Positions 29,040-56,800 of a stretch of DNA of 64,000 nt are shown here, piece by piece. The notes beneath the pieces are model-generated. The model saw only the letters and a list, made by a program, of their open reading frames with translations, made no database searches and was not told the origin of the DNA. Both the position numbers and the translations under genes were made by a program. Every line of letters begins with the position of its first letter. Positions within the stretch are counted from its first letter, which is position 1. This stretch comes from Plumapathes pennacea (Eukaryota; Cnidaria; Anthozoa; Antipatharia; Myriopathidae): NCBI GenBank assembly GCA_964036295.1, contig OZ038466.1, forward strand, positions 10,566,001 through 10,630,000. Direction: 5' to 3'.

Positions 29040-30200
29040 GTCAATGAGTGTTAGGCCAGCTAGGTGTTTTTGGTTGGTTTGGTTGATCAACTTTTGCAAT
29101 CCACTAGGAACCCTGTTGATACAGTTGAAGAAGATGGTACTAGGTATATAGTTCTACTGGTACACACTTTAACCACATCAACCCAAACCGGTTTAAGTTG
29201 AATGCTTAGTCCCAATAGAACACCAGCTATTTGCTTCCAATATGCAAAAGCAAAATTTGCATTTTGTATCTCTCACCTGCAGTACCACACCAGGAACCAG
29301 ATCAACAAACTATCGCTGCTTTACTTCCTCAACCTGATCGATAATAAAGGCCTCCAAGGTACAAGAAGCCATGAACCGAACCTAAAGGTAATACAGTCGT
29401 GTGAGCTACTATTTTTCTATTTGAAAGTAGTTGTAGCATGGTGTGTATGTGTAATGGTGACACAAGACCATGGAAACAAGGTATGTGGTGTACTGCATTT
29501 AAAAATTTTTTGAAACAAAATACATTTAAGAGACTGTATGTATGAGAAGTGTAGATACATTCTCGTCATAATTTAAGCCTGTTTTTAACAGAACTCACAA
29601 GGTTTCATACTGTAGCTCACTTCTGTGTCACAATGATAAATGTATCTCAGAGGTCATAGCTTCAAATTTTATTGAATCCTCTAAGCTTTATCTGGGCTTT
29701 CTTTGCACAGCACTGCTTGACTGCTTCATCAATGTAAGTGTAAGAATCATTAGCAGTACATGTATGCTGGCTATAGGACAGTATAACTGACAAATCAAAG
29801 AGTCTGTACCAATTGACTTGTCTGGTCGTGTAAACACTGCCACAACATCTGCTTGATAACATCCAAGTAATGATCTTGTTGAGTGCCAAATACCCCCGGA
29901 AAGGAACTGTACACAATCAAAATATAGACAGTTAACTCTTTCAGTCCTACCATACACGGTACAGTAGCTTGCCCACAACACAACTTCTCTTTGCCATTTT
30001 TCATAGAGATTGCATGAGTGACATGGTGAGAATTGATGCTCATAATGTCACTGGTTTTATGTCAGCAAGCTACAGTATGCTGGTTTGTACTACATACAGT
30101 GTGTACATGTTTGTTGGTAGAGTTCCGACTTTCTGCAAGCAGCTCTAGAAAACTGCACCAATACACTGTACTGTACCAGTCAAATGTATTGAAGCCTGGG
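29040..30200 (-). repeat. inverted duplicate of importin-5 introns 4-6
   Basis: The reverse complement of this segment aligns with 58047-59460, including exon 5 (identical over most of its 97 nt) and exon 6 (29381-29277). It differs by scattered substitutions, a 3-nt insertion and the TAG at 29312-29310. It lacks two mobile elements present in the plus copy. Similarity fades beyond about 30.2 kb, the truncation point of the pseudogene. Confidence 0.9.
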
Positions 30201-34005: not shown

Positions 34006-34052
34006 TATATAGTCCCGGGGGGGGGGTACTCAATAGGAATTTGGGTAGGGGT

Positions 34053-34213
34053 TGTAGCTCCATGGGGAGCCACGTGGGGGCAGCCCAGTCCCTTGGACGC
34101 GTTACTTAGTCTTTTCGCGCCCTTTGCGATCACGTGATAAAAACTGAACCAGCAGCGTGTGTCGCTGTTCTTCGTTGCTTTGATATTTTGGTCCTTGGTG
34201 CGAGTCACCTACT
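34053..34213 (+). repeat. BEL 5' LTR, left fragment
   Basis: Colinear with 52813-52973 at constant offset without indels. It breaks off after gagtcacctact, where the composite segment begins with catgacgagcc. Confidence 0.93.
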
Positions 34214-37200
34214 CATGACGAGCCGCACGCCTTGACAACGGCCTTTCGGTGGGGACAATTTGTCCCCACCGCCTGTGGAGGGCGGTCTGCTTGGCATGGC
34301 CAGAAATAGCGGACACGCATGCGCATTAGGGGCTGCAATTTTTTTGGCTTTCAGTGTAAACTAAACAAGAGACTTTACTATGAAGATGGACACAAAAATC
34401 ATCGTACCTTTGAACTAGAGACTAAGTAGCAAGCTGTTCAACCGGATTCTCTTATAATACAAGGATACCGAAAATATTAACACAAAATCAGTAGCTGTCC
34501 ATATGCACTTCTTGCGTTTTTCCAATGTAAAGATGCATTAGACACGTCTAAGAGACAACAGTATGGCAGACAAGCTGAAAACGGCATACTGGATGAGAGT
34601 AGCTGACCGTAGCTGCCTCGAAGTTGTTGAAATATCGAAGCTGTTCAATCGGTTCTTACTTCGAGAAAGGTCATTCTTCTGAACAAACTTATTGGTAACC
34701 CTCGGCACTTTGTATCTCTTGCGTTTTTGGATTATAAAGATGTGTTTTGTTGAATTTAGCCGCACAATCACTCGATACGCACGCTTAGTGAAGCAAGGTT
34801 CGATGCTACTCGCGATCGGTTCTAGCTCCCTCCGATCGGCCCCGGCGATCGACCAAGTTGTTCAAAACAAACTGTGTAGCCTTGTGAGTAAACCATCCTG
34901 CAAAGTGAGTTCAGGATTTGTTTTGGGAATTTAATGGAGCTTTGAAAGAGACGTCGCGAATCGTGGCGCATAAATACGGTTGTTCAAGAACGGACAAGGA
35001 AACTCTGTCCAGCAAAGCAGGAACTGTTTTAATACCGCTAAATTGTAAGACTTGTTCATCCTTTCTTCTAACTTCAGCATAGAATTTGCAATTATACTAC
35101 AGCACCAAGTTTTACAAAACTGACCGTGCGTGTCACCAGTCGCTTTGAAACATTTCAGCTTTTCCATTTGCGGCATGCTGTTTCCAATAATCACTACGAT
35201 CTTGGAACAATTTTTCAGCAATCGCAGTGATCGTAGCAATCCAGCGGTCTCTGAACACTTTTCTGAGCGATCGCAGTGATTGATCGCAATCCGGCATACT
35301 TCAGCTAATTGAACGGTTGTGACTAAACTCAGGTTTCCGAGAGGAAACTGGGACCGAATCAAAAATTAAATTTTCGTCAGCTCGGACCGTGTTCCGAAAA
35401 CAGTACGACAGTGACGTTGATGTTTTGAAAGTTCTTGGCGTGCATTAGCAAGTCCGTTCGGCTGGCCGCGTCGCGCCGCCTGTGTTCCTTTTACGCGGAC
35501 GTGGAGGTCAACTCCAAATAAACCTGAAGCGGCTCAAGACATGGGTCGAAACTGTAACCAGTCAACAGATATACACAAGAAGCATTGTAGTCGTGAACAT
35601 GAAAAGGACAATATTACTGTTTATTTGTAAAATTTCGGGTCAGCCGGCCATTTGCTCGAGAACACAGTGGTTTTGGATGAAAATAACTTATCTATATAAG
35701 CATCCTAATACAGTAAATACGGATAAATTTAGGATACGTTGGAAATCTGATCCGTCTATAACTGTTGGCTTCTATGGGCTTCATTTTTGTTCCTATTTAC
35801 TTATCATCCCTGTGGTGATTTTTGACATTTCGCACCTTCGAATGCTTAAATCTTAAATGCTTAAATGTCTTATCATAGCATGTCTTATCGTGAATGCGTT
35901 CGTCTTCTGGAGTTAAGACTGATCAAGAAACACAGGATCGTACACAAGCCGTTTCAATCGCTCTCCGGAACAGTTCACGCGGTGGGATTTTTTTATCTTC
36001 GGTGCCAATATTCATCTGTGCCAGATCATCCATAACAAGCCTTTCTTCTTTAGTATTTTCTCCCCGAGCTAATTTTTTCCTTCTAAAACCTTTCCAGTGC
36101 CGAATTTTATTTGACTGTCTTCCGGTGTTAGATGCTTCAGACGAACCGAGGTCGTTTTTTTGTCCACAATGTTCGTAAACGGCTCCGGACGACTTCGCCG
36201 ATAACTCGTTGTTTTGGTCCCAGTCTTCACTCGGAAACCTGATTTTGGAGCCCCAGTTTAGTCACGACCCTAATTGAACGTTTGGTAAACAAACTGCTGC
36301 CCGCGATTTTGGGCGGGAAAAGCTGCCGCGGACGCACATTGTGGCGGGAAATACCCGGCCCGCTGACAATGTTGCAGGCTCAGAATGTCCGCTATTTCTG
36401 GCCATGGTATGAATGACAGAGGTGTAAACTCCAAACCAATTAGCACAGTCGGTGTGCCGATAATCACTTTGTCCTGAATTAGAAATTGTAATTTTAGCCG
36501 GCAATCGTGCTTTGGGGTGCCTTTCTCACTCTATAACAGAAGTCACGCTTATGCGGAGAAAATTATCAGTCGGCATCTAACGAAAGAGCTTGGTGCCCAG
36601 TAAAAAAAATCTTATTAGTTTTCCGCCAGTCATAAACACTGTCATTGATTTGACTTCACTTCCGTGCAATATTTCCTCACAAAGATTCGCGTCGAAACAC
36701 GCACTTCCTGAGAACATTACAGTGGTCAGGTAGTCGCCGAAACATTCAATGAATGGTTTCTATGCACCGCAATCAAAAAGCTATATGTCCGTTCATTCTA
36801 AGCCTGTTAAAGTCAGCGAGCTCTTCCCTGTTATGTCACGTTATCGAGTTTTATGACTGAGTCAGCTGCTAGCAGACAATGTGCCGAATCGAAAATCAAT
36901 TTTTGTAAATCCGAATTTCAAATTGGATAGTGCTGAAACTTTTATCAAAATCTTACAAAAGACTGTTTCAAGTTTAGTTATCAGTGAAAAATGTCCCGCG
37001 GTATTATTCCAATAATAGTCGATTCAATCAGGCTCATCCACATCAGGTAACTCTCAGCTGTCATGAAATCAGCATGATAGCACCCAGTTCCTGTTTTCGG
37101 AATAAAATTACATTCGCGGGACATTACTGTTTTACGCGGGAAGGACAAGAGGCAGGATTGAGAGGGCTAGCAAATCGCTTGTGTAGTGGTATAATCGGTT

Positions 37201-38401
37201 GAGGGTAAGCTATCGCTATTTCAGTTAATCCGCGAGATTTATTCGGGCCGATTTCCCGTGTGTACGTTCTGGCCACATGTTTGGTTTTGTGGCCGGATCT
37301 TGCTCTGTAATTGTTTAGCTGCAAATTTCAGGATGGGTAGATATACTAGTTTAGACTTATGTTTCTTGAAGTATGGCTCATAGCTTTAAAAATTATATGT
37401 TGAAGTGATTGTGGCTCTTTTTGTGTGACGGCCAGATCCGTTCAATCGGTGGTTTTGAGCTAACCATATTACTGCGAGATCACCTAGCGAACGAAGCCCA
37501 GGGTACTTGTCAAAGGTCTAGCCCTCGGCCCGCGTATAGTATTATCTGATCACAACATGGTTACTTGTAAACTCGCGCAGGCCCAAAGGTTTATATAGTC
37601 ATAGCGAAAGATTAAGTTTAATTTTCAAAATTGATCGATGTTTGGACATTGCAGGCAGCATTATGGAATGTATTTTACTCATTGCGGCAAATGGAATGGT
37701 TTAAAGCTAAATTAAGCTTTGTTAGGAGAACACAAGACAAAACTCCGGGCAGACACACAGAAAGTACAAAAGCATTAACTCGTACATCGTCGTTTGGGTC
37801 TTTGATCAATTACAGGGCGAAGTATTTATAGTTTGATTGAAGTTTTTGTCGAGAACTCTACTGGTGTTTTCAGTGGTGTTGGGGGTTTTGAGTTGAACCG
37901 CAAACTTGTTCCCAGGAAGTGGATGTTCCGACACGAATCTTTGGGAGGGAATATTGCACGGAAGTGAAGTCAAAATCAGGTAAAACCGTTTTTGTAGTGA
38001 TTGGCTTTATTCCAAGACTGATATACGCTTCAATCTTGCGTATCAGCTTATTTTGGTAGGATAAAAAGTTGCCAATTTTAATACTCGGCGACGGACGGCT
38101 ACTTTAAATTTGCGCAATAGTTTAGTGTATCAGCCCATTTGTCGAAGAAAAAATGACAAACTTTGAAGAGACTCAAAAAATACAGCAAAACGACCCCAAA
38201 GCTCAGTGAATTCTTGATATCCGGTTTTCACAAAGCAGCTCAGCAGGCTGGCGTTTGCCCCAAGGGAAACATTCTCACCCCAAGGATCGAGGCGCTTGCG
38301 TGCTGTTTTGCTTACACCTTTGTTCGCCGCAGTTAATTGGGATTAAAACAGCTTGGTTAGCAACGGGTACTTACGGCTCAACCCGGCTGCGACTCCTCAT
38401 G
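34214..38401 (+). repeat. 2.4-kb repeat, copy A (interrupted)
   Basis: Excluding 34295-36406 it aligns with copy B from catgacgagccgcacgcc to the ctcctcatg end. It starts with a short perfect palindrome centred on gggacaatttgtccc. An internal inverted repeat pairs 36641-36735 with 37905-37985. It lacks about 360 bp that copy B has near 46260-46630. There is no domain-bearing ORF, so it looks like a non-autonomous element. Its ends catgacgagccg and cgactcctcatg are roughly inverted. Confidence 0.85.
34295..36406. mobile_element. 2.1-kb TIR element nested in copy A
   Basis: It begins CATGGCCAGAAATAGCGGAC and ends with the exact inverse. Copy B keeps the uninterrupted sequence (cttggtatgaatgac at 44796), so this insertion happened only in copy A, with at most 1-3 bp duplicated. 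The interior has a minus-strand ORF of 143 codons (35362-34931) with several Cys residues and no family I recognise, and GC-rich sequence near the right end. Confidence 0.85.
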
Positions 38402-41336
38402 TGACTATGATTGTTTGTGTTACTATGATTGTCACGTGATTATAAATGGGTTTACAGTTATACTTTGTTTCTTGTCACGCAACCAAGCTTGGATTCATTT
38501 TGTATTGTATCAATTATTCTTTGTCCCTTTGATTAGTGTAAAGATTCTATTCTCCTTTGTTTTAGTTGGGTGACACTAAGGAAATGCCTATGATATTTTA
38601 TGGGTTCTGTAATCAATAGATTTTGTCTTCCGAAATTGTTTAGCGTTGTATCGTTTAGTTAGTTGTAGTCTGGACTTCGTAGTAAGCAAATCGTTTTGTT
38701 ATCAAGTTATCCTTGCTCAGAGGTTTCACTGCGTGGATTTGATAAGTAAGTACCCTTGCTTGTATTCTTACCGTTTTTATTGTAGTTTGGTAATCAGCGC
38801 CCAGTAGTGATTTAGCTAAAGGTAAAGTGCTTTATTTAACGTCGGTAGTTCCGTCATTTAAAGGGAGTCAAACGCCGTTGCTCATGTCGGTTGCCAAAAT
38901 ACCGGCAGCTTTAAAAGTGCTACCTGGATGAACTGTCGTATTTTATAAGGTTTCTTAGTTCTAGTGCTCGCTGTCTGCGTATACCTGACATTCTTGTGTA
39001 AGGAAAAATCCAGCAAGTTGTACAGTAGCAATAGAATTTATATACCTCCCACACAATACATTTGTAATTATGTTGATGTTGTTTTTTTGACTCATATTGC
39101 CAATTAGCCTATTCGGAGTTGTGCTAAATGAATCAAAATTAATCAAATTGAAAAAACTAACCCTGACAAGCCAACTTAGTAAGTATTCGAGACTTCAGCA
39201 CGACTCGCCCATGACCAGCCGAATGGCAAACTCTTAAAAAATTGTCAAAATATGAGACGTCGCGTTCCTCACTCAATACTAAAGTCTCTTTATTTTTCTT
39301 TCTTTCTTAGTTTCTTTCTTTCTTTCTTTCTTTCTTTATATTTTCCAATTTTATTCATTTTTATTCTCATTTTGCACAATAGCCGGATTGTCTATTCATA
39401 GTTTTAATTACTAACCCTGGCTTTCTGTGTACTTTTTCCTTGGTATTTTCTTCTTCTAGCCATGATGGGGTCCCAACCTACCTTCTAACTTTTTGAGTGT
39501 TGAAAATTTTAATAGCACAGGAGAAAATATTAGAAGCCTTCCCTCCGGCTTCATATACGACATTTTGGTCTAAATGTTCACATTTCCTACATCAATCTTG
39601 CACTTATTTTGATACTGTAACTTTGAATGAGAATAATCTGATTTATTAGATTTTTTGAGTGGAACGGTCGATTTTTTCCTTCGTTCTGGTTTCTAATTTG
39701 ATTGACAGCTCAGCCAGTCAAGCATTTTAAGTCTTTTTTAGGTCAAGCAAGCTGGGCTAGCGTACTTTTTAGATGAAGTACGTTTAACCACGGCGTCGGT
39801 TTAGCAACAAATTGAAAATATTGCTTTGATTCTAATCTGGGTGCATGATTGACAGTTCAAGACGTTCGCAGTTTGGGTGTTAATTGTTAAGTGACAGCAC
39901 GGTGATATTCAGAAGTTTCGCTTCTGCTTTCTGGCCCTGCATGGTTTCGATTGCGTCCTAGCTGACTATTATCAGTAATCGCTCTCATCAGCGCTCTTCA
40001 GTCCGACTCGAAGGAAACAATCTAACTTCGTCCAGGTAAGAAATACAAGGGAACTTAAGCAAACTAGGACGGCGACGGCAATGCGAGGAACCAGGAAACT
40101 TTCACTCAGCTTTCAGGCGCCGAATTCAGTTCGCAGCCTTTCATCTTGGAGTGTTTTAGAAAATAGAGTATCCAATTTAAGATAAAACTGGTGGGTTTTT
40201 GGTAACGTCCATTTGCTACAGGTTTCTGTTTCTACTCTCAACTGTAACAAAGCCGCTCAGTAGCATTTAATATTGCGCCGGAAAATTTGAATTCATACTG
40301 CCTCCATGTGTTTCTTCGTACCATTAACACCCTGTATATTATCAGATTGTATTGTAATTCTACTCATTGACCCAGCTTTAGCTAGCAAAAGCGAAGCAGA
40401 TGCAAACGAGATAAAGGCTTCTCATTATGCTGGCAACAACAAACAGATTTCACTTTCCTGCTGTGTTATTGTACCGTGTCAAATTTGTTATGCGTCAGGT
40501 TTGATTTTGCCTCTGCCAATACTTCGTTGATTCCTATTCATTTCGTGGTTGGTTTACCTTGCCCTTGAGGATTTGACATTTACCTACAGGCCCGGGTGAG
40601 GTGAGTCGATTTACAAGCTGTACAAAATGACGGAGACAGACGTTTTTCGGCATTCACTCTTCGTCACAAATGGCTATGTGTCGTATTTTGTTTCTCATGC
40701 AATAGCAGAAGGAATAAACAAGCATACAAAGGGGATACTTTTTACGTTATACCCATGGTAAGGCCTGGAGATCGAAATATTCGCAAAGCAGTGAGCACAG
40801 GTGATGCTGATTGCGATTTATAACCGTACAAGTATAATTGTTTCAGACGTTTTGCCCCGATTTAATGGTTTCTTCTCTCCATTTTTTAAATTCTATGCTC
40901 TTTGTGTTCCTTTGACTGAGGAGGGAGTTTTCGATAGTGCTTATAAATTATTAAAAAGAACGGTCGCAGTGGGAAAATATAAGAAGAGGGAATTGGCATT
41001 TTTTGGGAGATGGTTATTCTGAAGGTACATAAAATGAAGTCGCTTAAAATTGAAGTGGATTGTGTGGGTGTTCTGTGAGAAATGTCCTTCGGGCTATTCG
41101 TTCGCACAAAGAGCAAAACGATGGTTCTTTCGTAGTGACTTTGGCGGCAAAATACGCGGGTTCACACTTGAAAAGCTGTAAATGTCAACGTTATTTCTGT
41201 TAAATTGGGACTTTGCATTGACGTTTATGGTCATTTCAGCTCGTGCGTGTATTTGCACCCGTGCGTTAGTCTGGGGTGCATAAAATTAAATAATTTAGTA
41301 ACTACGCCCTATAAAACATGGATGATTTTCTTTCAG
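38402..41336. other. unique region upstream of the GPCR gene
   Basis: No ORF with domain support. It holds a (TTTC)n tract (39296-39338) and presumably the promoter and any 5'-untranslated exon of the receptor gene, because the first coding exon begins directly after a tttctttcag acceptor. I could not locate the transcription start. Confidence 0.5.
39296..39338. repeat. (TTTC)n microsatellite
   Basis: About ten imperfect TTTC units. Confidence 0.9.
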
Positions 41337-43962
41337 ATGAACTGGCGTCTGTTTACTTTTTTCCTCTGCTCAACTGCAGCAGTTTGTGCGCTTGGTTCAA
41401 ATGAATCCTTTTTGTGCGAAGAGTGCGTCACACTCTCCGGTAGTTGCCAGTCGTGTTCAGTGACATGTAATATCAGTGAGTTGCATGGCCCATTCGCATG
41501 TTTCCGTCATCCTCGCGACGTGTTATCATTGTAAGTATTTTTGTGTTGTTCTGGTTATAGTTTTCATAAAGGTGTCTAATTTGACGTTTTGAGCGCTAGC
41601 CCTTTTGGTCAGAGCAAGAGCTAGAAAACTCTAGATTTAGATTTAGAGTCGAACCTCGCTATTTCGAACTCGGTTAATTCGAAGTCCCCGTTATTTCAAA
41701 GTCGAGCCGAATCCCCTTGAATTAGTTTGGCCAGCTTGACTAGCTCGGTTAATTTGAAACCCCACTATATCGAACTTTTTTTCATGTTCCCAGGGACTTC
41801 GAAAAAACGTGGTTCGACTGTATTAAATGAGTGGATGGATTGGTGTTTAGTGTAGATCAGTACTGATTCAATAACAAGACTTGAAGACTAAATTCAAACC
41901 TTTTTCCTTTTTTTTTTTGATACTAGAGATTTGTCGATGAATGGACTGGCGGAAATTCCTGACAGAATCTTTGAGAACTTTACGAATCTTCTGAATTTGT
42001 AAGTGTCGTCTATTAAAAATGTGGTTGTGCGTCTTTGCTCGTTTATGTTCGTTAGAAGTGACCGTATATGCTTACAAGTACGATCTCGTAGAACTAAATT
42101 AGTAGGAAATGGTGTTAATTTATCTTGATTTGCAGGTCTTTGGCAAACAACAAAATCCACACCGTTTCACGAGAGGCCTTCTATGGACTGAATGATCTTC
42201 GTTACCTGTAAATAGCCAATCTTTGAATTCTCATTAGCATAAATCAAATTTAAAGCTAAACAAACAGACTCTTCCTCAAAAGGAAATTCCAACTTTTAAC
42301 AGCTAATTATTGAAAATTTGAAAATTTTGCGTTCATAGTTTTTTTTAGAAAAGACGTGAAAGTTGTATTGTTTTGTTATAGTGATAAAGGATGCCCCCCC
42401 CCCCCCCCCCACCCCGCCCCCCATTCGCACGAGATATATCTATTATCTCGTTTGTAACAAATATGTCGAGCTTTGTGGAACCTACGAGATTACAGAAGTC
42501 TTTATCGTTCCCTTGCAGAAACCTGGCGGGAAATGGCAATCTTTCTTGGGCAGACGAATTTGCGGTGTATCTGCCCTCCCTTACATCACTTGACGTCACG
42601 GGAAACGTAGTGATGCCGCACGGACAGGTTCTGGGATTGACGGCTCTGAAAGAAATAAAAGGGGTCACGTGGAGTGCGGAATGTACCAATTGTGTACTCC
42701 TTAAAAACTACAGTTACCATAGAAACAGGTACCTTGGAGACGTAACAGTTGAGGATCTGAAGGAAGGGGAGTTTGTTAGGGGATTTAAGGGAGATTGCCG
42801 AGGCGACAGATATAACATCAAAAATACTTCGGTGATATTTGCGAAGCACGGCTTCTTTCCAGCCTGCGTTGCACAAGACGAGAAATGTTTCCACTCAGAG
42901 ATTTCTGTGACACCGATACACCGTTGCTGGGAAACGGATAACTACATCTTGAACGTGGAGTTTCTGATCGGGACTTTGGGCCTGTTGCTCAACGCCATAG
43001 TATTTGTGACAACATTCTCAGTGAAATCCCTCAGGAACAATGTGTCCATGCTGCTCATAGGAAACATGGCGATCAGTGATTTCTTAATCAGCGCCTATTC
43101 TGTTGCATTAACAGCTGCGCGCAAACTTACTTATGTGGAATTTTTGACCATCATGACTGATTTCTGTAAATTTTGGGGCCTTCTGTGGCTTTTGGGTCAA
43201 CTCGTTACCGTGACGACATCAGTATTGTTAACGTTAGAGAGATACGGGGCTGTGATAAATTTTGCGAAGCCGAGCAAGAGAATGACTTTCCGGAGAGCAA
43301 CCGCTGGTATTCTCTTTTGCTGGCTCGTGGCTCTTGCACTGGCAGTGTTACCCCTGGTAGGAGTCGGCGTGTATACATCAAACACTTACTGTATTCCGAT
43401 TAGACCAAGGAGAGATATTCCACGTATGTTTGAGTTTAGCATCGCGCTAACTTTGATTGGGATTTTACTGTACTTTGTCATGCTCCCACTTTACTTTAAG
43501 ATGTACTTGGTTGTAAGGAAGTTAAGCCACCGAGTTGGAGTAGGTCGCGAGGGCGCATTGGCCAAACGGATTGCACTTATTGTCATCAGCAACATGATAT
43601 TTTTCATATTTCCTGTCGTGCTTGCTCTTTTGTGGCTGGCTTCTGATGCACTGCAAAAGTTGCCTCCCATATATGAAGAGATCCTTTCCGGGGTGGTTCC
43701 TACAATATGTTTCAGCATCAATAGTTTCATCAATCCTCTGCTTTCGGCTTTCCGCCACGAGCGCTTCAGGCAATCGCTACGCAAACGAGCAACGGACTGC
43801 GGACAAAGTCTGCGGAGCTTCTGCTGTGGCAAACGAAAGAAGGCGAAACAAGCGCGTGTAGCAGTGTACGAGTCGGAAAATCAGGAAACCAACCGTGAGA
43901 ACCAGTTAAGAGTAAGAAAAGACAATCCGTCCATTGTAGAAGAATGCTCAGCGCATCTCTAG
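41337..43962 (+). CDS. LRR-containing rhodopsin-family GPCR (LGR/relaxin-receptor-like), 4 coding exons
   Basis: Exons 41337-41530, 41927-41998, 42136-42207 and 42519-43962 (stop TAG) join to 593 codons with consistent phase. The product is a cell-surface receptor. A signal peptide (MNWRLFTFFLCSTAAVCA) is followed by a Cys-rich N-cap, then two 24-residue LRRs encoded by 72-nt exons, a third LRR with a C-cap, and a 7TM domain. Approximate TM spans are 254-278, 286-312, 329-355, 373-395, 418-442, 462-487 and 500-525. TM3 ends ERY (DRY variant), Cys329/Cys404 can form the usual disulfide, and TM7 has NPLLSAF instead of NPxxY. The 7TM style fits the LGR/relaxin receptor group, but with only about three LRRs the ectodomain is unusually short. 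The ligand is unknown. The gene appears intact, yet lies wholly within the 12.9-kb composite segment. Confidence 0.9.
41646..41820. mobile_element. pogo/Tc1-like MITE in GPCR intron 1
   Basis: Ends gagtcgaacctcg and cgtggttcgactg are inverted and flanked by TA on both sides (41644-41645 and 41821-41822). The interior repeats ttcgaa words. It is 175 bp and non-coding. Confidence 0.85.
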
Positions 43963-44499
43963 ACTTATCTGCTGCTCTTAATGCTCAAGGACTAGTGTAC
44001 GAAATAGGAGCCAAAGTTACTTTCACAGTCATGCGCAGTACGGTGCTGAGTCAGATATTCTGGCAGGCTGGGGTCGCTTGACGATCAAACTGAGTATTTG
44101 CTCAGACGAAGGGCTAGCGCTCGAAACGTCAGCTTTAATTTTTTCACGGCGTCCAGCTTTTACACATCGAACCTTTTGTCGATCCAAGTTTTACGTATTT
44201 CTCCACGCTGACGCAGTCAATCTAGGTCTCTTTATAGAGCTGGTTTTCCATTGAGTAAAGAAATGCTACATAGGTCATAACAGAATTTTCTTGAAACAAA
44301 AACCAAACTCGGTAGAGAGATTACTTCATAGTTTCGTGTGTTGGAGAGGTCTAAAGTACTACTGCGCATGACCGTAAAAGCGGCAAAGCGGCAAAGTGGA
44401 AATTTTGGAAATTTCTGAGGATTCATTGAAGTCAGCATCTGTTAAAGGTGCTCTAGCGATCTCATTTTGTATTACCTCGCCGAGAAAACGAAATAACGA

Positions 44500-44518
44500 A
44501 ATAAAGCAAAAAAATAAA
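44500..44518 (+). terminator. two AATAAA polyadenylation signals after the GPCR gene
   Basis: AATAAA at 44500-44505 and 44513-44518, about 540 bp after the stop codon and 200 bp before repeat copy B. So the gene's 3' end fits inside the composite segment. Confidence 0.5.
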
Positions 44519-44718
44519 GCAAGGCTTAAGCTGATGCTGTGTCTTGTTTCTAGTACTCTTGGCTTAGGTCGTACATGTCTAACATGACCAGAAATGGCAA
44601 ATAGTTATACCTATAAACCTTGTTTTTCGGGGAATTTGTGAGCCTTCCGTTTTTATGGACAGCAGTAAAACAGAGGAAATTACTAGGTTACCAAGCTTTT
44701 TCAACATGGGGGACGTAG

Positions 44719-47130
44719 CATGACGAGCCGCACGCCTTGACAACGGCCTTTCGGTGGGGACAATTTGTCCCCACCGCCCGTGGAGTGCGGTCTGCTTGGT
44801 ATGAATGACAGAGGTGTAAACTCCAAACCATTAGCACAGTCCGTTTGCCGACAATCATTTTGTCCTGAATTAGAAATTGTAATTTTAGCCGGCAATCGTG
44901 CTCTGGGGTGCCTTTCTCACTCTATAACAGAAGTCGCGCTTATGTTTCGAAAATTATCAGTCGGTATCTAACGAAAGAGCTTGATGCCCAGTAAAAAAAA
45001 ATCTTATTAGTTTTCCGCCAATCACAAACAATGTCATTGATTTGACTTCACTTCCGTGCAATATTTCCTCACAAAGATTCGCGTCGAAACACGCACTTCT
45101 TGAGAACATTACAGTGGTCAGGTAGTCGCCAAAACACTCAATGAACGGTTTCTATGCACCGCAATCAAAAAGCTAGTCCGTTCAATCTCTTCCCTGTTAT
45201 GTTACGTTATCGAGTTTTATGACTGAATCAGCTGCTAGCAGACAATGTGCCAAATCGAAAATCAATTTTTGTAAATCCGAATTAGTCAAATTAGATGCTG
45301 AAGCCGTTATCAAAATCTTACAAAAGACTGTTTCAAGTTTAGTTATCAGTGAAAAATATCCCGCGGTATTAATCCAATATCAGGCTCATCCACATCAGGC
45401 AACTCTCAGCTGTCATGAAATCAGCATGATAGCATCCAGTTCCTGTTTTAGGAATAAAAATTACATTCGCGGGGCATTACTATTTTACGCGGAAGGACAA
45501 GAGGCAGGATTGAAAGGGTAAGCGAATCACTTATGTAGTGGTATAATCGGTTGAGGGTAAGCTATCGCTATTTCAGTTAATCCGCGAGATTTATTCGGGC
45601 CGATTTCCCGTGTGTACGTTCTGGCCACATGTTTGGTTTTGTGGCCGGATCTTGCTCTGTAATTGTTTAGCTGCAAATTTCAGGATGGGTAGATATATTA
45701 GTTTAGACTTATGTTTCTTGAAGTATGGCTCATGACTTTAAAAATTATGTGTTGAAGTGATTGTGGCTCTTTTTGTGTGACGGCCAGATCCGTTCAATCG
45801 GTGGTTTTGAGCGAACCATATTACTGTGAGGTCACCTCGCGAACGAAGCCCAGGGTACTTGTCAAAGGTCTAGCCCTCGGCCCGCGTATAGTATTATCTG
45901 ATCACAACATGGTTACTTGTAAACTCGCGCAGGCCCAAAGGTCTATATAGTCATAGCGAAAGATTAAGTTTAATTTTCAAAACTGATCGATGTTTGGACA
46001 TTGCAGGCAGCTTTATGAAATGTATTTTACTCATTGCGGCAAATGGAATGGTTTAAAGCTAAATTAAGCTTTGTTAGGAGAACACAAGACAAAATTCCGG
46101 GCAGACTCACACAGAAAGTACAAGAGCATTAACTCGTATGTGGTCGTTTGAGTCTTTGATCAATTATAGGGCGAAGTATTTATAGTTTGATTGAAGTTTG
46201 TCGAGAACTCTACTGGTTCTTTCAGTGGTGTTTGGGGGTTTTGAGTTGAACCGCAACCTTGTGCGAAAAAAAGAGAACACCTTGGCTTTCAACCGGCTAC
46301 TATTACTGCGAAATACTATAATTTCGGATACATATTTTACGACTTCGGTTATTACCTGACCTGGCAGAATCTTAGTGCAGCAATGTTCTGAGGAAGTGTG
46401 TGTTTCGGCACGAATCTTTGTGAAGGAACATTGTATGGAAGTGAAGTCAAATTCAGGTAAAATAGCTTGTAGCCGTCCAGTTTCAGCAGTCTTCTTGTCG
46501 TTGCGATCATAACTCAAACAAAACAAGTAAGATCTCGCCTGTGGGAAGTAAACATCTCGGCTTTTTTTGGACCAAATTTCAGCCATTTGGGATCTTTCTA
46601 TTACTACCTGACTAGACAGAATCTTAGTTGCTGCAATGTTCCCAGGAAGTGGATGTTCCGACACGAATCTTTGGGAGGGAATATTGCACGGAAGTGAAGT
46701 CAAAATCAGGTAAAACCGTTTTTGTAGTGATTGGCTTTTTTCCAAGACTGATATACGCTTCAATCTTGCTTATCAGCTTATTTTGGTAGGATAAAAAGTT
46801 GTCAATTTTAATACTCGGCGACGGACGGCTACTTTAAATTTGCGCAATAGTTTAGTGTATCAGCCCATTTGTCGAAGAAAAAATGACAAACTTTGAAGAG
46901 ACTCAAAAAATACAGCAAAACAGCCCCAAAGCTCAGTGAATTCTTGATATCCGGTTTTCACAAAGCAGCTCAGCAGGCTGGCGTTTGCCCCACGGGAACA
47001 TTCTCACCCCAAGGATCGAGGCGCTTGCGTGCTGTTTTGCTTACACCTTTGTTCGCCGTAGTTAATTGGGATTAAAACAGCTTGGTTAGCAACGGGTACT
47101 TACGGCTCAACCCGGCTCCGGCTCCTCATG
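44719..47130 (+). repeat. 2.4-kb repeat, copy B (uninterrupted)
   Basis: Same start, palindrome (44753-44775) and end as copy A, in direct orientation. It has an internal near-tandem duplication: the block ending gaagtgaagtcaaattcagg occurs near 46370-46460 and again near 46620-46710. An inverted version lies at 45050-45125. A 199-codon minus-strand ORF (46763-46164) covers that duplicated part, and its repeated sequence argues against a real protein. Its right end abuts the second half of the BEL LTR. Confidence 0.85.
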
Positions 47131-47361
47131 CCTACCCTTAAGAAGCTGGATAAAGGTCAATATTACTTTCATCGCCTTTCCCCTTTGATTGTTTTGTATT
47201 TACAATCATGCTTGTTATTGTGATATTTCGCTCGTTATATTTTCCGTTCAATTGCCTTATTATGTACATTGTATTGTATTCTTTTCCTTAGTTTTACGTC
47301 ATCTCAGTAAATACACAGCCTTTTAACCAAGGTCTCTTCTGTGAATCGACCGGCGGTTACA
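47131..47361 (+). repeat. BEL 5' LTR, right fragment
   Basis: Colinear over 231 bp with 52975-53205, ending ggcggttaca. Confidence 0.93.
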
Positions 47362-47461
47362 GTAAAACTTTTCCTTGCGAGTTTGATGAAACTCGGCGAG
47401 ACACGAGGAATTGTGGAACCTGGAATTTGGTACTCGGACCTCGGATTGTGGAAGACCGGCG

Positions 47462-50400
47462 ATGGCGTCGTCGCCACCATGTTTGGAGAGCCAATCCGAA
47501 AGGGCACCTGAAGAAGCTCACAGCAACATGCCGGATCACGGTGTCAGAACACGAAAACTTACCGAGAAAGGTATGGAGTTTATGCGTTCCCTGAAAGAAA
47601 AAACGTACCACAAGGCCCTAAATGAATTGAAAAATGCAGTTGATCTGATAGACATGCAATGGAATGATATAACAGACACCAACGTTCTGAGAGAGAAAAG
47701 AACACAGCTAGAGCAGTGTCGAAAGGGTCTGCAAGCGGCACGGTCTGAATTTACAGCATTATTGTCAGGAGAAGAAATGAAGGACACGCTCGTAGAGTCT
47801 AATTTCTCTCTCAAACAAGCTCTGGAGCTGAGGCAAAGGATCGGCGAAATGATCTTCGAGTTAGAGAGAGAAGAGCTGCGCTCTATCAGCGGTAAATCGC
47901 ACGTCTCGAGAAGCTCCATGAAGTCAGACACCTCCTCATTAAGAATGAAAGCTGCGGCAGAATTGGCCAAAAAACGGGTAGAGTGCAAGTATGCAAAAAT
48001 GGAAACCCAGAAGAAAATGGAAATCCAGAAGAGAGAGTGCGAAATGGAGGAACTGCAGAAGGCAAAGGACTACGAAAGAGTCAAGGCTGAAGCAGAAGCT
48101 ATCGCGAAGTTAGAGGAAGAAGACATGAGATTTACCCGAGAAATGCTAGGCCAAGAACCCGTTGAAGAAAAGGTGAAGGAAGAACGAGTCAACCAATATT
48201 TGTCCTCTTTGCCTGATTATCCAACTCCACAAGATACAGCCTTTCAGCCTCAACACAACATCTCAGAGGTCATCGCAGAGTGCATGCAAACAGTCAGAAT
48301 GCCTTTACCAAACCTTACAGTCTTCAACGGAAACCCCCTGGATTGGCCTTTGTGGAAAAGCGCCTTTGAGGCAGTGATAGAGAAAAGAGCAGTCACGTCA
48401 AGTGAAAAGATCCTGTATCTACTACAGTATCTTTCTGGAACACCAAAGAAGGTAATTGAAGGTTACCAGTATGTTGAATCACCAGACGCCTATAGAGAGG
48501 CAAAAAACATTTTAGAGAAACGTTTTGGTCACCCTTCGGTTGTCGCGGATGCTTTCCAAAGCAAGCTCGAAAACTGGCAGAGAATCGCCCCGAAGGATGG
48601 AGCTGCCCTGAGAGAATTCGCAGACTTTTTGAAGACCTGTGAGATGGCAATGAAGTCCATTGAAGATCTAGAAACTCTCAACAAGCAGCATGACAACAAG
48701 AAGCTACTTAGGGTCCTTCCTAATTGGGCACATTCTAAGTGGGGAATCAAAGTAAGGAAATATCAGATAAAGAACGGCGACAACAAGTTCCCCCCCTTTG
48801 CAGATTTTGTCCAATTCGTTGATGAGATTGCTGATGTGCAGTGCCTCCCAGTACTCGCTGGCCTGGACTCCACCAGACCAGTAAGGGAGGATAAAGGCAG
48901 GATCAGCAAAGAAAGATTTGGACATCGTAGAAGCCCTGGGGCAAGCTCCTTCTCCACTAGAGCAAGAGAAAAACCTCTAGTTCGCAAGGGGGGAAAGGAC
49001 AAGGCATGCCTTTGGTGTGACGCCTCCCACGATTTGGATTCATGTCAGGAATTCATGTCAAGGCCACTCAAGGAGAGAACGAGGCACATAATAAGAAAGG
49101 GATTGTGTCTTCGATGCTTAGAGCATGGCCACATGCCTAAGGAGAACAAGTGTACCAGTGTAAGGAACTGTGAGAGGTGTAACCAGCAACACCCCAGTTG
49201 CCTCCATAAGGATACATCTGAGAGAGAGGACTATGCAGAGAAGCAGGTAGACAGTGCAGGAACTAACTGTACCAGCGTCTGTAACATCTTGGGGCAACAA
49301 TCTGGACAAGATCAAAGTTTAATTGTCCCTGTCTGGATCTCCAACACCCAAGAACCCCAGAATGAATGCCTAACGTACGCCATCCTCGACAGTCAATCCA
49401 ACGCAACGTTCATCAGTGAAGGGTTAAGACAACGGCTGAATGTTCAAGGCGTAGAAAGTCACCTTCTGCTCTCAACCATGCACAAGGAAAATGAAATGGT
49501 GGAGTGCCGAAGGATGAAGGACCTTCAGGTGAAAGACTTCAAGCGGCAGGTTACCATCCCATTACCAAAGGTGTTCTCAAGACAAGTCATTCCATGCAAG
49601 GCCTCCCAGATCCCTAAATCAGAAGTTGCATTGCAATGGGAACATTTAAAGTGCATAGCTAAGGAACTCATGCCATACAGAGAAGATGTAAAAGTTGGCC
49701 TGTTGATTGGAGCCAACTGTCCCAAGGCCATTAAACCACGAGAAGTAATACCGGGAGCAGATGATGATCCTTACGCCATAAGGACTGATCTCGGTTGGGG
49801 AGTCGTGGGACGAGTGTGCAAGTCGCCCCAAGTAATACACGAAACGGATGGAAGCTGGGCGAACCGAACCGTAGCAAGCGAGCTGGAGCCCAACCCTCTT
49901 GCAGGCACAAACTTCGCCTTTGAATCCCTAGCAAAGGAGGTGTTCAGCCCCGCCAAGGTGAAAGAGATGTTCGAGCTCGACTTTCACGAACGATCCAAGG
50001 ACTCGAATTCACCAACCCTGTCAGTCGAAGACAAAAGATTTCTGAAAATCATGGAGGCTGGAATCCATAAGAGGGAAGACGGGCATTACGAAATGCCACT
50101 TCCATTCAAGTCAGAAGACGTAAGACTACCGAACAATCGATCACAAGCGCTTAGACGACTGCTCCACCTGAGATCACGCTTCCAAAGAGATCCAGGGTAC
50201 CAGAAGGATTATGTGGAATTTATGGAAAAGATGATCGAGAACTGCGCTGAGCCAGTACCTCCTCGAGGCGCGGAAGAAGAAGCAGAGACTGACGGAAGAA
50301 TCAACTATGTTGCTCATCACGGAGTGTATCACCCAAAAAAGCCAAGCAAAATCCGGGTTGTGTTTGACTGCAGTGCACTCTACCAAGATGGGAACAGTGG

Positions 50401-50545
50401 AAGAAAGATCTTCACACCCTCGAAGACCTCAAGATCAGAAGATGTTACAAGCCTGAAGAGTTTGGAGAACTGGCAAGTGCTGAGATGCATCACTTTTCTG
50501 ACGCAAGTCAGAAGGGTTATGGCCAGTGCAGCTATCTACGCCTGA
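47462..50545 (+). pseudogene. BEL/Pao gag-protease ORF, RT truncated
   Basis: From the ATG at 47462, the N-terminal region is coiled-coil and Glu/Lys-rich. It is followed by the Pao gag-like domain around FNGNPLDWPLWKSAF, CCHC-type zinc knuckles (CLWCDASHDLDSC, CLRCLEHGHMPKENKC) and an aspartic protease block with LDSQSNATF. The start of RT ends at RVVFDCSA. Shortly after, near 50375, the sequence jumps directly to the region before RNase H in another frame. The ORF then reads about 55 out-of-frame codons to a stop. The RT palm, including its catalytic Asp motif, is absent. An internal deletion is the likely cause, so the copy could not self-propagate. Confidence 0.88.
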
Positions 50546-52674
50546 AAGACAAGGAGAACAGAGTTCACTGCTCCCTTATCATGGCCAAGGCCAGGGTTAC
50601 GCCACTGAAACCAGTCACTATCCCTCGACTAGAACTGACGGCAGCCGTCGTTTCAGTCAGGATCAGTCAGTGGCTAAGACGGGAACTCCATTATCCAGGG
50701 CTCATCGAACACTTCTGGACAGATAGCCAAGTGGTGCTGGGCTATATCAACAATAATGCCAAGCGATTTCATGTGTACGTAGCCAACCGCATTCAAGAGA
50801 TCCATGACTGCACTAAACCGGATCAATGGCACTACGTTAGAAGTGAGATCAACCCTGCTGACGCTGCCTCACGTGGACTAACAGCTCACCAACTGGTGCA
50901 TGAATTACTTTGGCTGAGGGGCCCTGAATTCCTGTGGGAACCAGTTCTCAGCCCACCAGAACCAAGCCCTGATCTACGAGCAGATCCAAACGACCCAGAA
51001 GTCAAGAAGGTCTCCAGCCTGGCGACGCAAGCCAAAGAGACCAATTCAGACCACTTTGAAACTAGCAGATTGGATGGTTTTTCCGACTGGTTCAAGACCA
51101 AGAGAGCCATTGCAGCCTGCTTACGACTCAAGGAACAGCTAAGAAAAGGAAAACCAAAGTCACAAGACAAGAACGTGTACCACAGAGTCAGTGTAGAAGA
51201 AGTTGGACAAGCGGAATTGGAAATCATCCGCTGTCTTCAACATGAGCATTTTTCGGAAGAGATCGACACCTTGAGCAGGTGTGACGTCAGTGGTGAATAC
51301 TTAGACAGGAAGGACGCCAGGCAGCGCAACAGTGACATGAAGAGGAAGAGCAGCCTGTACCGACTTGACCCTTTCCTTGATGAGAGTCGAATCCTACGCG
51401 TTGGCAGTCGTCTAAGGAGAGCGAACATCTCTGTTGTTTCCAAACACCCGGTGATACTTCCAAGGAAATCACACATCACCAAGCTGATCATACGACACTG
51501 TCACGACGCAATAAAGCACCAAGGCCTTGGAATGACCCACGACGAACTCTGTCAGCGTGGATACTGGGTGATTGGAGGTGTCTCCGCCGTGTCTAACTAC
51601 ATCTCAAAATGCACCACATGCAAGAAACTGCGTGCCCCAGTGCAACAACAGAAAATGGCGGACCTTCCAGTAGACCGAACAGAACCGGCTCCGCCTTTTA
51701 CATATTGCGCAGTCGACTACTTTGGCCCATTCATCATCAAGAATGGACGTAAGGAAGTAAAGAGATATGGAGTCTTGTTCACCTGTATGGCCTCCCGAGC
51801 CATACACATCGAGACGGCGAACTCATTAGAAACAGATTCCTTCATAAATGCACTCCGTCGTTTCCTCGCCGAACGCGGCCCAGTTCGTCAGATTAGATCT
51901 GATTGCGGTACCAATTTTGTGGGAGCAAGACGCGAGCTAAGCGAAGCCTTGGAGGAAATGGACCAGGACAGAATTCACAACCATTTGTTAAAGGAGAGCT
52001 GCGAATGGATTGAATTCAAGATGAACGTCCCTTCAGCCAGTCACATGGGCGGAGTATGGGAGCGCCAAATAAGATCAGTGCGCAATGTCCTGGAGGCCCT
52101 GTTAGAAGAATCAGGAACCCAACTCGACGATGAAGGCTTCAGAACGCTCATGAAGGAAGCACAAAACATCGTCAACTCGCGACCTCTAACTGTCAACGAT
52201 TCGACGTCTCCTGAAACGCCCAACGCACTGACACCGAATCATCTTCTAATGATGAAGACCAAGATACTGATGCCACCCCCTGGTGTCTTCCAAAGAGAAG
52301 ACCTGTACTCACGCAGAAGATGGCGCAGAGTACAACATCTGGCCAACCAATTTTGGAGCCGATGGAAGAAGGAATTTCTCCAGACACTCCAAGCACGCAA
52401 GAAATGGATCCGGCCACAACGGAACTTGCAAATTGACGACATCGTGCTAGTAAAGGACGAGAACCTTCCAAGAAACCAGTGGAGGATGGCCAGAGTTCAG
52501 GAAGCCTTTCAGAGCGATGATGGTTTGGTCAGAACGGTGAAATTGGCAATGGCCACGACTGAGCTTGACAAGAATGGAAAAGGGCATCGCGAGATCCAGT
52601 ACCTGGAGCGCCCTGTTCAGAAGCTGGTCGTGATTCAGCCTAGAGACCGGGAAGTCCCCCCTGAGAAGCCCTAA
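50384..52674 (+). pseudogene. BEL/Pao RNase H and integrase region
   Basis: Open from the deletion junction (first ATG in frame at 50485) to TAA at 52672. RNase H begins near MHHFSDASQKGYG and includes WTDSQVVLGYI and NPADAASRG. An H2C2-type zinc-binding region precedes the integrase catalytic core, whose three acidic residues lie in VDYFGP, RSDCGTNF and GVWERQ. The C-terminal part with WRRVQHLANQFW is the DUF5641-type tail of Pao elements. The open frame is undamaged, fitting a young element. Without upstream RT it lacks its normal polyprotein context. Confidence 0.88.
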
Positions 52675-52812
52675 CACTGACACAGACAAGTGTTAGGGAC
52701 AATGATTTCTGAACTGTTTCAATCCAATTTATGGATAATAGAACTTCTACTAGTTGTCGTTTTTAGATAGTTTCATTTGTTTTGTACAGTGGATTCCCAC
52801 TGTGGGGAGCCA

Positions 52813-53205
52813 TGTAGCTCCATGGGGAGCCACGTGGGGGCAGCCCAGTCCCCTGGACGCGTTACTTAGTCTTTTCGCGCCCTTTGCGATCACGTGATAA
52901 AAACTGAACCAGCAGCGTGTGTCGCTGTTCTTCGTTGCTTTGATATTTTGGTCCTTGGTGCGAGTCACCTACTTCCTACCCTTAAGAAGCTGGATAAAGG
53001 TCAATATTACTTTCATCGCCTTTCCCCTTTGATTGTTTTGTATTTACAATCATGCTTGTTATTGTGATATTTCGCTCGTTATATTTTCCGTTCAATTGCC
53101 TTATTATGTACATTGTATTGTATTCTTTTCCTTAGTTTTACGTCATCTCAGTAAATACACAGCCTTTTAACCAAGGTCTCTTCTGTGAATCGACCGGCGG
53201 TTACA
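52813..53205 (+). repeat. BEL 3' LTR, complete
   Basis: 393 bp, TGTAGCTCC to GGTTACA, preceded by a short purine-rich tract (gtggggagcca) and followed by the GGGGT target duplication. It gives the uninterrupted sequence used to define the composite insertion. Confidence 0.93.
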
Positions 53206-53790
53206 GGGGTGTTCCGCTGACTCTATAAAACCCTGACCCTAGTTCAAGACACAAAAATGGAAATTTTGCTACCCTGTCTAAGACAAAGTGCTCTAATTTG
53301 ATACCCTGTTCAAGACTAAGTTTAGATAAGTTAGCCTGCGTTGCACGCGTTTCCACTGGAACATATGAAGAAATCACGCGAAAATGACGAGAGCAAAAAT
53401 GTGGTTGAGGGGGGAGGGGAAGAGGAGAAAATCTTCAGAAAATAACCCTGTTTAAGATACGAAAATGTAAAACTTGATACCCTGTTTAAGACAGAAGACC
53501 CTGAAAATGATACCCTATCGGGCGAAACACACCTATATAGGAAATATATGGGAGTACCCCCCCCCCCCCCCCCGGGTATATAGTAAGCTAAATAACATAA
53601 AATAGCAACAGGGGAATAGGTCTTAACGAATCTCTATCGACCCATAAAAGTCCAAATAATAATAGTTCGGCTAAACTTTCTTGTCACTGTCCTTTGACCC
53701 GGGCCTTTGACCCAAACAGTTGACCTTTACCTTGGTTCTATGTGCTTCAAAAGTAACCGAGAGGGACTTGAACCAGGTTAAAATTTAGCT

Positions 53791-53866: not shown

Positions 53867-56800
53867 CGAACAACAGCAATTTGAAACTCTGGTAAGCCAG
53901 TTGATGTCGCCGGAGAACGCAGCCAGGAACCACGCAGAGGTACAGTGCCGAATCCTCGTAGGAATAAGTATTGAATCGGATCTTGTTAGGAAAACGAGAC
54001 GCCATGATATTTTTAGCTTTGGTTTCGAGGCCTTGACCATGTGCACTGCGGGTGGATGTCAGTTATCGTGTCAGTTTCTCTTTCACCGATTGTTTCGCTT
54101 TCGAAATCAAGTAACTTACTTTCGTTTACCGACGAGTTCGCTCTGAATGTCAATAGCGGTTTTCCTTGGGGTTTCAAGTGGAGTGTTATTCTCCTGGAAG
54201 TTGTCGTTTTATTAACGGGTCGCTGTCCTCTCGGCATTGTTTGTGAGCGGATTTCTAAGATTTATTTATCAGAAATGTCACTACGGCAGTGTCACATGCT
54301 GATGCACCTCGAATAATGTGCTGAAGGCAAGTGCTTGCAGTGTTGAAAAGTTAATTTTAGTATTTATTAAACAACACGTGCAATGATCGTGTGCAAATTT
54401 TTCGCGAGACGTCGAAACCGTATTTTTCCTTTTTCTTCATCGTCTGTTGATATGAAATTCACTCGAGAAGAGATCGGTGTTAAGGTACAAATACGTCTGT
54501 TTGAAGAAGCCTGCAATGACGTTTCCAGGCTGGTCAGCAGTGCTAGTCATGACATGTCTAGCTACTGTAGCTCTATAGGGCAATAAAGTCCACAAAATCA
54601 TCAGTACCTTGCGAACACTTCAAACCTAGAGTTGTGGAAATGCATAGATTGATTCAACTCACCACAATAAACCACAAAGCATGTTCTTGTGTTGTTATTT
54701 ATGTTTATAGTAGACTGCATGACTAAACTGACTACTCCAAAATCAGGTTTCCATTTAGAGCAATAATAAATTGCAATTAAATTACTGTATGTAAGCAAGC
54801 TTTACTGTAAACCTGCAGTAGCCCCCACCAATCCTAACAAAGAGTTATGAGGGCTTAGGTCAAGTTGCCAAACATGATTTTCTTTTTCCCGTAAAGGTAC
54901 CACTGTGGTTAATTAAATTAATTATCAATTTAGACTGCCATCCTTTTAATTTGGAACTGTGCATAAGCATCTACAGTAATGGAAGAAAAACCTTGTTATA
55001 CAGGGTAACATACTATAACTCATACTGTGTCAATTAGTTGACTGTTCAAGTTTTTATTGGACAAAAAAAATGTTTTATCAGAAGAAAGTCAAGTATCAAA
55101 CTAAGTTCTATTGGCACATATAAAATGCATCTCTTTAGCTGGATCCACCTTGTTTGGCCTTCTGTATTTTTGGCATGTAATACAATAAGCTGAAAATGCT
55201 TTATGTACACAATTTACCTGGTTTACAGCATTCATTTTTCATATTGATTTTCCTTTTAAAGCGGAAGAACTAAAAAATAGAATGACAAAGAATGTTGAGG
55301 AATATCTGACAGGAAAGGAAACTTTAACTAGTTAAACCCTAAATAAATGAATGATGACATAACACATGATAAAAATTAAGTGAATGCTGGTAATAATTCA
55401 ATTTAATGTAATGTTTTTAATTATTAATAGATACAATCACACACATGGGGTTTGATTTTCATCCCTGGTTTTGTAAACATGTTACAAATACATCATGCCA
55501 TGTTTGTAAAATCTGTCAAGATTTAGTCGTCTGATCTCACTGCTGCTTGTATATATTGCAGACCCAATATGCTGGAATATCAGAACCTATCAAAATACAG
55601 TTCTTGTTACAAGCAGCAAGAACATCTGCCATGCCAGAGGTATGAAACAAACAGACTGGAAATTGTGATTCCATAGATCTACAATATGGTATGATACTGT
55701 ACTTGTAAGCAACACCGAACTGTCACTTCACATGACTTAATTCCAGGGGAAAATAATCATCCATTTTATTGTATTGTCTTGTTGAGAAGCTGTATATAAA
55801 CTGGATTTTAAAGCTTTTCTCTTGTGATTGGTTGAACTAATGATGTTATATGTTGGCCAAGTTTCCAAACAACATGACTTTTAAAATATGCTTGTTTTAT
55901 ACAATTTTTTATTGGTTTTAAGCATGTATATATCATGGAAGAGAACTGCATTTTTTTTGCCTGATTCTAGAAGTACATGAAATCATGCTGTGTTGAAGGA
56001 TCAGTAATACAATGTACTGTATGCTGTAGACCAAGGAGATAGTAGTGGAAGTTTACATTATACAGGAGGCATTCAATAACTTGCTCAGATGAAAGCTGAT
56101 TAAACTATCAACTCTCACTACATCAATCATACACATTCTTCTGGAATGTTTAGGAGAATTTGTATTGACTCATTTATGAAGGGGTAAGTGGAGTAGACCT
56201 GACTTCCAAAACACTTGTCGACATTGCTTTACAATATTTTTTGTTGTTGCAGATACGTCAAATGTCAGCAGTATTGTTACGCAGAATATATTCCACTTCA
56301 GTAGACTTTTACCAGAAATTGGAAGTAAACATGCAACAGACAATGAAGGCTGACCTTCTGAAAGGAATAGAAGAAGAGCCAGTTCCAATTGTCAGGAGAA
56401 AGATTTGTGATGCAATAGCAGAACTGGCCAAAAGTTTACTAGGTGAGTCGTACATTCATACTGTAATCCTGGTGCAGTTTTGTACAACAAGGCTTCCTGA
56501 CATAAGATTCATTGAGTACAACATTTACATTTTTGTCCTTGCAGATGAAGAAGGCTACAATCACTGGCAGGAGCTGCTCAAGTGTCTGTTTGAGTGCTGC
56601 AACTCACAGAGGTCTGAACTGAAGGAGAGTGCTCTGCATATTTTGTGGTAAGTATTTTATACTCTGCACATATATATAATTATATATAAATTATATATAT
56701 TATTTAAACACTATTTATTCTTAACATTTGTTCCAAAGGCAAAAGGCTTATCTAGGGAACTTATGTTATATAAAGTGAAATTTTTATGGGACAAATGTAT

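Follow-up and report, generated by a model that had tools for sequence, protein, structure and literature searches.

Probable transfer of an intact receptor gene into a BEL long terminal repeat by a composite DNA transposon in Plumapathes pennacea

A window of 64,000 nucleotides from Plumapathes pennacea (C5:10566001-10630000, within a 290-Mb assembly of 24 contigs) contains a young BEL element, the 5' long terminal repeat (LTR) of which is broken by a 12.9-kb block of other DNA. The block carries a complete receptor gene, apparently of the leucine-rich repeat (LRR) G protein-coupled receptor (GPCR) type, between two copies of a dispersed DNA transposon. It is probable that a natural composite transposon carried this gene from C4 into the BEL LTR on C5, and two copies of the gene are present in the assembly, one on C4 and one on C5. 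The arrangement works like a macrotransposon, which is a known kind of element, with an unusual carrier family; it is said only to work like one because a donor locus with both transposon copies is not found in this assembly.

The BEL element (34053-53205) is flanked by the target duplication GGGGT (34048-34052 and 53206-53210), and the block (34214-47130) begins with CATGACGAGCC at 34214 and ends with CTCCTCATG at 47130. Both the splitting of the LTR and the shared termini of the block had been put forward from the letters of the window in an original prediction, and both hold. The block consists of a copy A of the transposon, a core, and a copy B in the same orientation as A:

34053-34213, plus strand, first part of the BEL 5' LTR, 160 of 161 bases as in 52813-52973, ending ...CACCTACT at the split
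34214-38401, plus strand, left copy A, 2075 bp of family sequence and a nested insert, termini CATGACGAGCCGCA and TGCGACTCCTCATG
38402-44718, plus strand, core (cargo) of 6.3 kb, host DNA homologous to C4:5911106-5918580
44719-47130, plus strand, right copy B, 2412 bp, full length with both termini
47131-47361, plus strand, second part of the BEL 5' LTR, identical to the corresponding part of the 3' LTR
52813-53205, plus strand, BEL 3' LTR, carrying the uninterrupted version of the target site, CACCTACTTCCTACCC

The 5' and 3' LTRs differ at one of 392 compared sites (34093), as predicted, in addition to which one T is absent at the split. The uninterrupted site, CTACTTCC, is intact in all six LTRs of this BEL family that cover it, these being the element's own 3' LTR and five elsewhere, so the empty LTRs that had been suggested as a check on the insertion do exist; two further LTR hits do not cover CTACTTCC and are outside this count. 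The insertion of the block removed one T from the LTR and left no duplication.

Among the best 40 of 3002 candidates scored, C4:5911106-5918580 is the one other locus to match the core in full; the match is in two parts, with a 1.1-kb insertion between them that is absent from the window, and the remaining 40 of 43 matches are parts of a 400-bp repeat within the core. The two cores differ by 45 substitutions in 6290 aligned bases (0.72%). There is also a full copy of A on C4 (5909031-5911105, 2075 bp), without the nested element, and with C4:5909031-5918580 made up of A and the core, the cargo comes from a known place next to a member of the carrier family. The homology between the window and C4 begins exactly at the left terminus of A (34214 = C4:5909031) and stops exactly before B (44718 = C4:5918580). 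C4 thus provides the parental GPCR locus that had been proposed as a further check, although of the flanking repeats it has the left one only. Since the introns of the gene are kept, its C4 source is this similar, and the break in the LTR falls at transposon termini, the predicted movement of the gene as DNA, after the BEL insertion, is supported.

C4 is probably the ancestral place of the gene and C5 that of the derived copy, judging from the sequence around each. The closest GPCR paralogue (from 86 matches in the best 88 of 740 candidates) is at C4:5921525-5922892 on the other strand, 45% over 451 residues and 3.7 kb from the C4 gene. To the right of the C4 core, the flank (about 0.76 kb up to repeats) has no second match among the best 40 of 3307 candidates. 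These two features, and the lack of B, make C4 the likely home of the gene. Transfer in the reverse direction, from C5 to C4, is highly improbable; pairwise similarity by itself is symmetric and would allow it, but it is C4 that holds the nearest paralogue and no LTR, with a flank that is unmatched among those scored, and it is the C5 block that breaks an element whose uninterrupted form occurs in six LTRs.

The repeats on either side of the core had been described as two direct repeats of 2.4 kb. This is so for B, at 2412 bp, but the left repeat spans 4.19 kb because a 2.1-kb element sits inside it, at base 82 of the window A. The two are of the same family, as supposed, yet they are distinct copies (96.4% over 2027 aligned bases, with 433 gap columns) and not duplicates made by the event itself. 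Three features of A are of note:

34247-34271, unstranded, subterminal palindrome with 12-bp arms and one loop base, CGGTGGGGACAA-T-TTGTCCCCACCG
34295-36406, unstranded, nested 2.1-kb element with inverted ends CATGGCCAGAAATAGCGG, absent from the C4 A
38388-38401, minus strand, right terminus of A, CATGAGGAGTCGCA in place of CATGAGGAGCCGCA

The palindrome is present in the window A, the C4 A, and B. The nested element has CATG at both of its ends and is one of a large young family (the best 40 of 332 candidates, itself apart, at 96-98%), which may share this mode of insertion. For comparison of the copies, 29 others were fetched and seven incomplete ones (L041, L045-L050) excluded, leaving 22, or 23 with B. 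The left terminus of A is that of the family majority, while the substitution in its right terminus recurs in the C4 A but not in any of the 22 further copies.

The two A copies, of the window and of C4, agree at 2057 of 2075 bases and have in common 66 alignment columns that at most two of the 23 others show, 63 of these being private to the pair. The columns begin at element position 61 and reach to 2403; they consist of 38 substitutions and 28 positions in sequence missing from the other copies. The left edge of the block therefore corresponds to the terminus of A within 60 bp, and from these private variants A would thus appear to be the same copy at C4 and C5 practically to its left end, which argues against recombination of the gene into a pre-existing element. 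The first 60 bases are identical between A and B, so an exchange inside them is possible.

This bears on the two mechanisms that the original prediction had offered, of which the carriage of the gene by two flanking non-autonomous elements fits best. The other was the integration of a circle into a pre-existing element; in a fuller form, a solitary B would have been the first to insert in the BEL LTR, with a circle or repair fragment containing A and the core added later, by homologous recombination or by an IS26-like reaction at the left end of B. This would yield the same A-core-B order and the same outer junctions, and would explain a C4 without B with no need for an extra allele. Homologous exchange would, however, yield chimeras of A and B. 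Since the left copy is that of C4 from element position 61 onward, homologous integration of a circle is disfavoured; it would need an exchange within the first 60 of about 2075 bp (~3% of A). A circle joining the core exactly to the left terminus of A also requires a special excision with one arbitrary end, and we know of no eukaryotic precedent for a targeted IS26-like reaction, which counts against this sequence of events as well. As a whole it is unlikely.

An assembly artefact, in which an alternative C4 haplotype has been joined into the BEL LTR via the repeats, is rather more improbable. The 0.72% divergence of the cores could be allelic in size, but the left junction would have to switch at most 60 bp from the end of the element and the right junction within B, and the junction of the core with B would still have to be accounted for. 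This junction must be real in some DNA, because C4 does not have it. The nested insert of the window A, absent from C4, is a further obstacle to an artefact.

Very unlikely, too, is a repair-based capture, in which C4 served as the template for A and the gene during the mending of a break at or in a solitary LTR element, through gap filling or fork switching. For animal Pack-TIRs, gap filling has been inferred in most single-copy cases, and fork switching in multicopy ones (Tan et al. 2021, PMC8277862). Here A and B are both complete with exact termini, so that copying would have to begin exactly at the left end of A and halt exactly at the left end of B.

The composite transposon reading is supported by two copies of one family flanking the cargo with intact outer ends, and by the location of all three transposon-related junctions (LTR with A-left, core with B-left, and B-right with LTR) at family termini. 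An old copy A of a DNA transposon with terminal inverted repeats (TIRs), apparently non-autonomous, lies 4.1 kb upstream of the LRR-GPCR gene on C4. On a C4 allele outside this assembly, a younger copy B of the same family would then have landed just 3' of the gene, oriented like A. Transposase supplied in trans may have brought together the left end of A, which is intact, and the right end of B, the choice of which may have been favoured by the substitution in the right terminus of A. As one unit of 10.8 kb (12.9 kb today, including the nested insert), A, the gene, and B would have moved into the 5' LTR of the young BEL element on C5, with no target duplication and the loss of one base. The junction of the core with B-left would be the original insertion of B, and the junctions of the LTR with A-left and B-right would be the insertion of the composite. 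The donor allele with B is inferred, as are the transposase and the chemistry.

The repeat on either side of the core belongs to a family of dispersed DNA transposons, with inverted termini of 14 bp and CATG at the ends. In a genome search with B, in which the best 40 of 365 candidates were scored, there are 22 full or nearly full-length copies besides B, on many contigs. Exact matches to the 14-base terminus CATGASGAGCCGCA number 207, whereas the reversed control has none; the repeat is therefore not a product of chance. Extended terminus patterns identify 87 left ends and 80 right ends genome-wide. The best match to B among the copies compared is L022 (98.2% over 2408 bp), and its right terminus has one change, at the 13th base. 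B has 29 private substitutions, which are uninformative as a test of whether it resided on C4 or in the LTR, because a moved copy carries its older changes along. Its longest reading frame, the one of at least 150 aa (201 aa, minus strand), has no Pfam match at E <= 0.1, and the copy is therefore taken as non-autonomous.

Joined flanks were compared in 26 copies, and 21 of these have no direct repeat of 2-4 bp. Four matched an unoccupied relative (L044, L032, L047, L037), of which L037 was removed from the count, its joined site being spanned only at about 70-74% identity. The three clean empty sites, all of solitary copies, show the loss of 1 bp in L044 (two empty relatives), 2 bp in L032, and 2 bp in L047 (87% identity). 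L063 contains a nested related element with CATGAGGAGCC ends, whose insertion cost the target 1 bp. In the few copies where this can be tested, the family thus inserts without duplication, dropping a base or two of target. The outer edges of the block carry this signature, one base lost and no duplication, as in the three solitary copies.

The 87 exact left ends include two direct neighbour pairs less than 20 kb apart, one being the present block and the other C4:2625630/2632888 (7.3 kb). The latter region, C4:2625630-2635307, is a possible further composite. L064, with 8.0 kb between two termini, was rejected as a second composite, as its middle matches multi-copy sequence, some of which recurs in other long spans with the same termini; we read it as a longer family member, not as cargo. 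L063 (7.2 kb) was rejected as well, as it contains the nested related element. Spans of 5.5-23.9 kb with the same termini are present at C2:34406149-34420017, C1:34301676-34307131, C1:19477534-19501421, and C2:16062170-16074248; three of the four hold internal L064 sequence and may be longer or coding members. At C3:22000071-22053923, truncated copies occur every ~10 kb, like a tandem array.

The cargo gene agrees with the prediction of a complete receptor gene with four exons, introns, and polyadenylation signals:

41322-41530, plus strand, GPCR coding exon 1, with the start ATG
41927-41998, plus strand, GPCR coding exon 2, one leucine-rich repeat by eye
42136-42207, plus strand, GPCR coding exon 3, one leucine-rich repeat by eye
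42519-43962, plus strand, GPCR coding exon 4, the rest of the ectodomain, the seven-helix domain, and the stop

The exon borders are GT/AG, the frame of 598 aa is open in both the C4 and the C5 copy, and AATAAA is present at 44500 and 44513. The predicted product fits an LRR-containing rhodopsin-like GPCR, by the Pfam match of the seven-helix part to 7tm_1 (1.2e-22) and by LRR exons recognized by eye; the closest solved chains are those of the thyrotropin, LH/CG, and FSH receptors and LGR4. The C4 and C5 genes differ in 18 codons, synonymously in 12 and non-synonymously in 6 (rough ratio 0.15), and both copies look intact. About 2.9 kb of upstream and 0.76 kb of downstream sequence has moved along with the gene.

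Several observations weigh against the transfer of the gene by a composite transposon, beginning with the fact that the evidence is from one assembly only. In this assembly B is absent beside the gene on C4, which reads GGGGGACGTAG followed directly by TGAAGAGG, and a donor locus with both elements was not found, there being no second copy of the C4 right flank among the candidates scored. No transposase was identified for the family by a protein-piece search and Pfam scans of selected frames; at E <= 0.1 there was no Pfam match in three frames of a slice of the 13.9-kb span L066, nor in one L064 frame. The protein piece from the element nested in L063 has 33 matches, and in one neighbourhood beside that fragment (L065:215-472) there is a DDE_1 domain (9.3e-12), of the pogo/Tigger-like kind, with at most a putative link to the family. 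Five of the 26 copies have equal flanks, of 4 bp in the C4 A, 3 bp in L027 and L031, and 2 bp in L025 and L026, where a rough chance expectation would be ~2 (2 bp), 0.4 (3 bp), and 0.1 (4 bp); those of 3 and 4 bp exceed this reckoning.

The divergence between C4 and C5 is also uneven. Of the 18 differences in A, 16 seem to have arisen in the C4 copy and two in that of the window, a more uneven division than equal rates would give (p = 0.0013). In the core, the 4098 window bases to the left of 42500 hold 15 substitutions and the 2219 to the right hold 30 (Fisher p = 2e-5), a split that persists without a four-base cluster beside an indel (p = 2e-4). Divergence is higher at synonymous sites (12 of 414) than at non-coding sites (27 of 4493), with most of the synonymous changes in exon 4, within the more divergent half of the core. 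The cores are therefore not simple duplicates of a single age; we read the pattern as recombining alleles or later conversion.

Elsewhere in the window, Pfam matches in the two long frames of the BEL element are to Pao peptidase, integrase zinc-binding, DUF5641, and DUF1759, with rve below threshold, and no reverse transcriptase domain was found in these frames at E <= 0.001. A long inverted repeat (29066-30180 and 58048-59383; ~96% over 665 bp, lower outside), its arms 28 kb apart, surrounds the BEL element and the block. The frame 56169-56651, downstream of the BEL element, matches IPO5-like TPR repeats (9.9e-18). Rfam at gathering scores has no matches across 28000-60000.

The closest counterparts are the maize Ac/Ds macrotransposons, in which the termini of two nearby members act as a unit, with excision and reinsertion reported (PMC9910405, citing Huang and Dooner 2008 and Wang 2022 as primary reports). 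As there, the termini of two family members enclose the carried DNA as one unit; unlike the plant system with its 8-bp target duplications, the present case is from an animal, with an unclassified family mostly without duplication and an inferred donor pair (PMC9910405). In Drosophila melanogaster, Ising's transposing element is described as composite movement of DNA between foldback transposons, and so is likewise animal DNA moved between two DNA transposons (PMC6431247). That element is hundreds of kb, whereas this is a natural insertion of 12.9 kb with source and target at the base level (PMC6431247).

Pack-TIRs, 370 of which, including Ssk-FB4, are reported from a survey of 100 animal genomes, are similar in that animal sequence has been duplicated and carried with flanking TIR transposon sequence, although they are mostly fragmentary, and in the present case A adjoins the C4 parent directly (PMC8277862). 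As its methods are described, the survey is silent on the present arrangement, since any parental copy with a transposon inside its 100-bp flanks was excluded; cases of end bypass may, by its own account, be missed too (PMC8277862). KolobokP also has an interior between long direct repeats, each with its own inverted termini and able to move alone, but the interior there is a transposase and nuclease, and Kolobok makes TTAA duplications, where here there is a host gene and no duplication (PMC9587614). Membership of KolobokP was rejected, as there is no TTAA at the BEL site and the core holds a GPCR and not a transposase. Spy elements have inverted termini. They make no target duplication either, but Spy prefers AAATTT, while the four empty sites here are without this motif and lose 1-2 bp (PMC4482050). 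Spy was rejected on these sites (BEL, L044, L032, L047), which lack AAATTT and have lost bases. An LTR retrotransposon with long repeats was also rejected, given the CATG termini (not TG...CA), the 96.4% identity, the lack of duplication, and the dispersed solitary copies. Among the matches listed in the open-access literature (titles and abstract openings), none is of an intact multi-exon animal gene between two complete non-autonomous elements with source and target.

New animal genes are usually traced to unequal crossing-over or retrotransposition. In the present case an intron-containing gene has changed chromosome, with source, target, and carrier legible at the base level and exact junctions supplied for testing in populations. 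It can be suggested, tentatively, that an animal composite transposon copied a complete, intact receptor gene to another chromosome, and that its carriers belong to a possibly undescribed CATG-ended group that removes one or two target bases and does not duplicate them. The composite class could be undercounted, because the large animal survey dropped parents with nearby transposons (PMC8277862). Pairs of this kind, if common, would duplicate whole genes by a route that has seldom been recorded and that at least one existing screen filters out.

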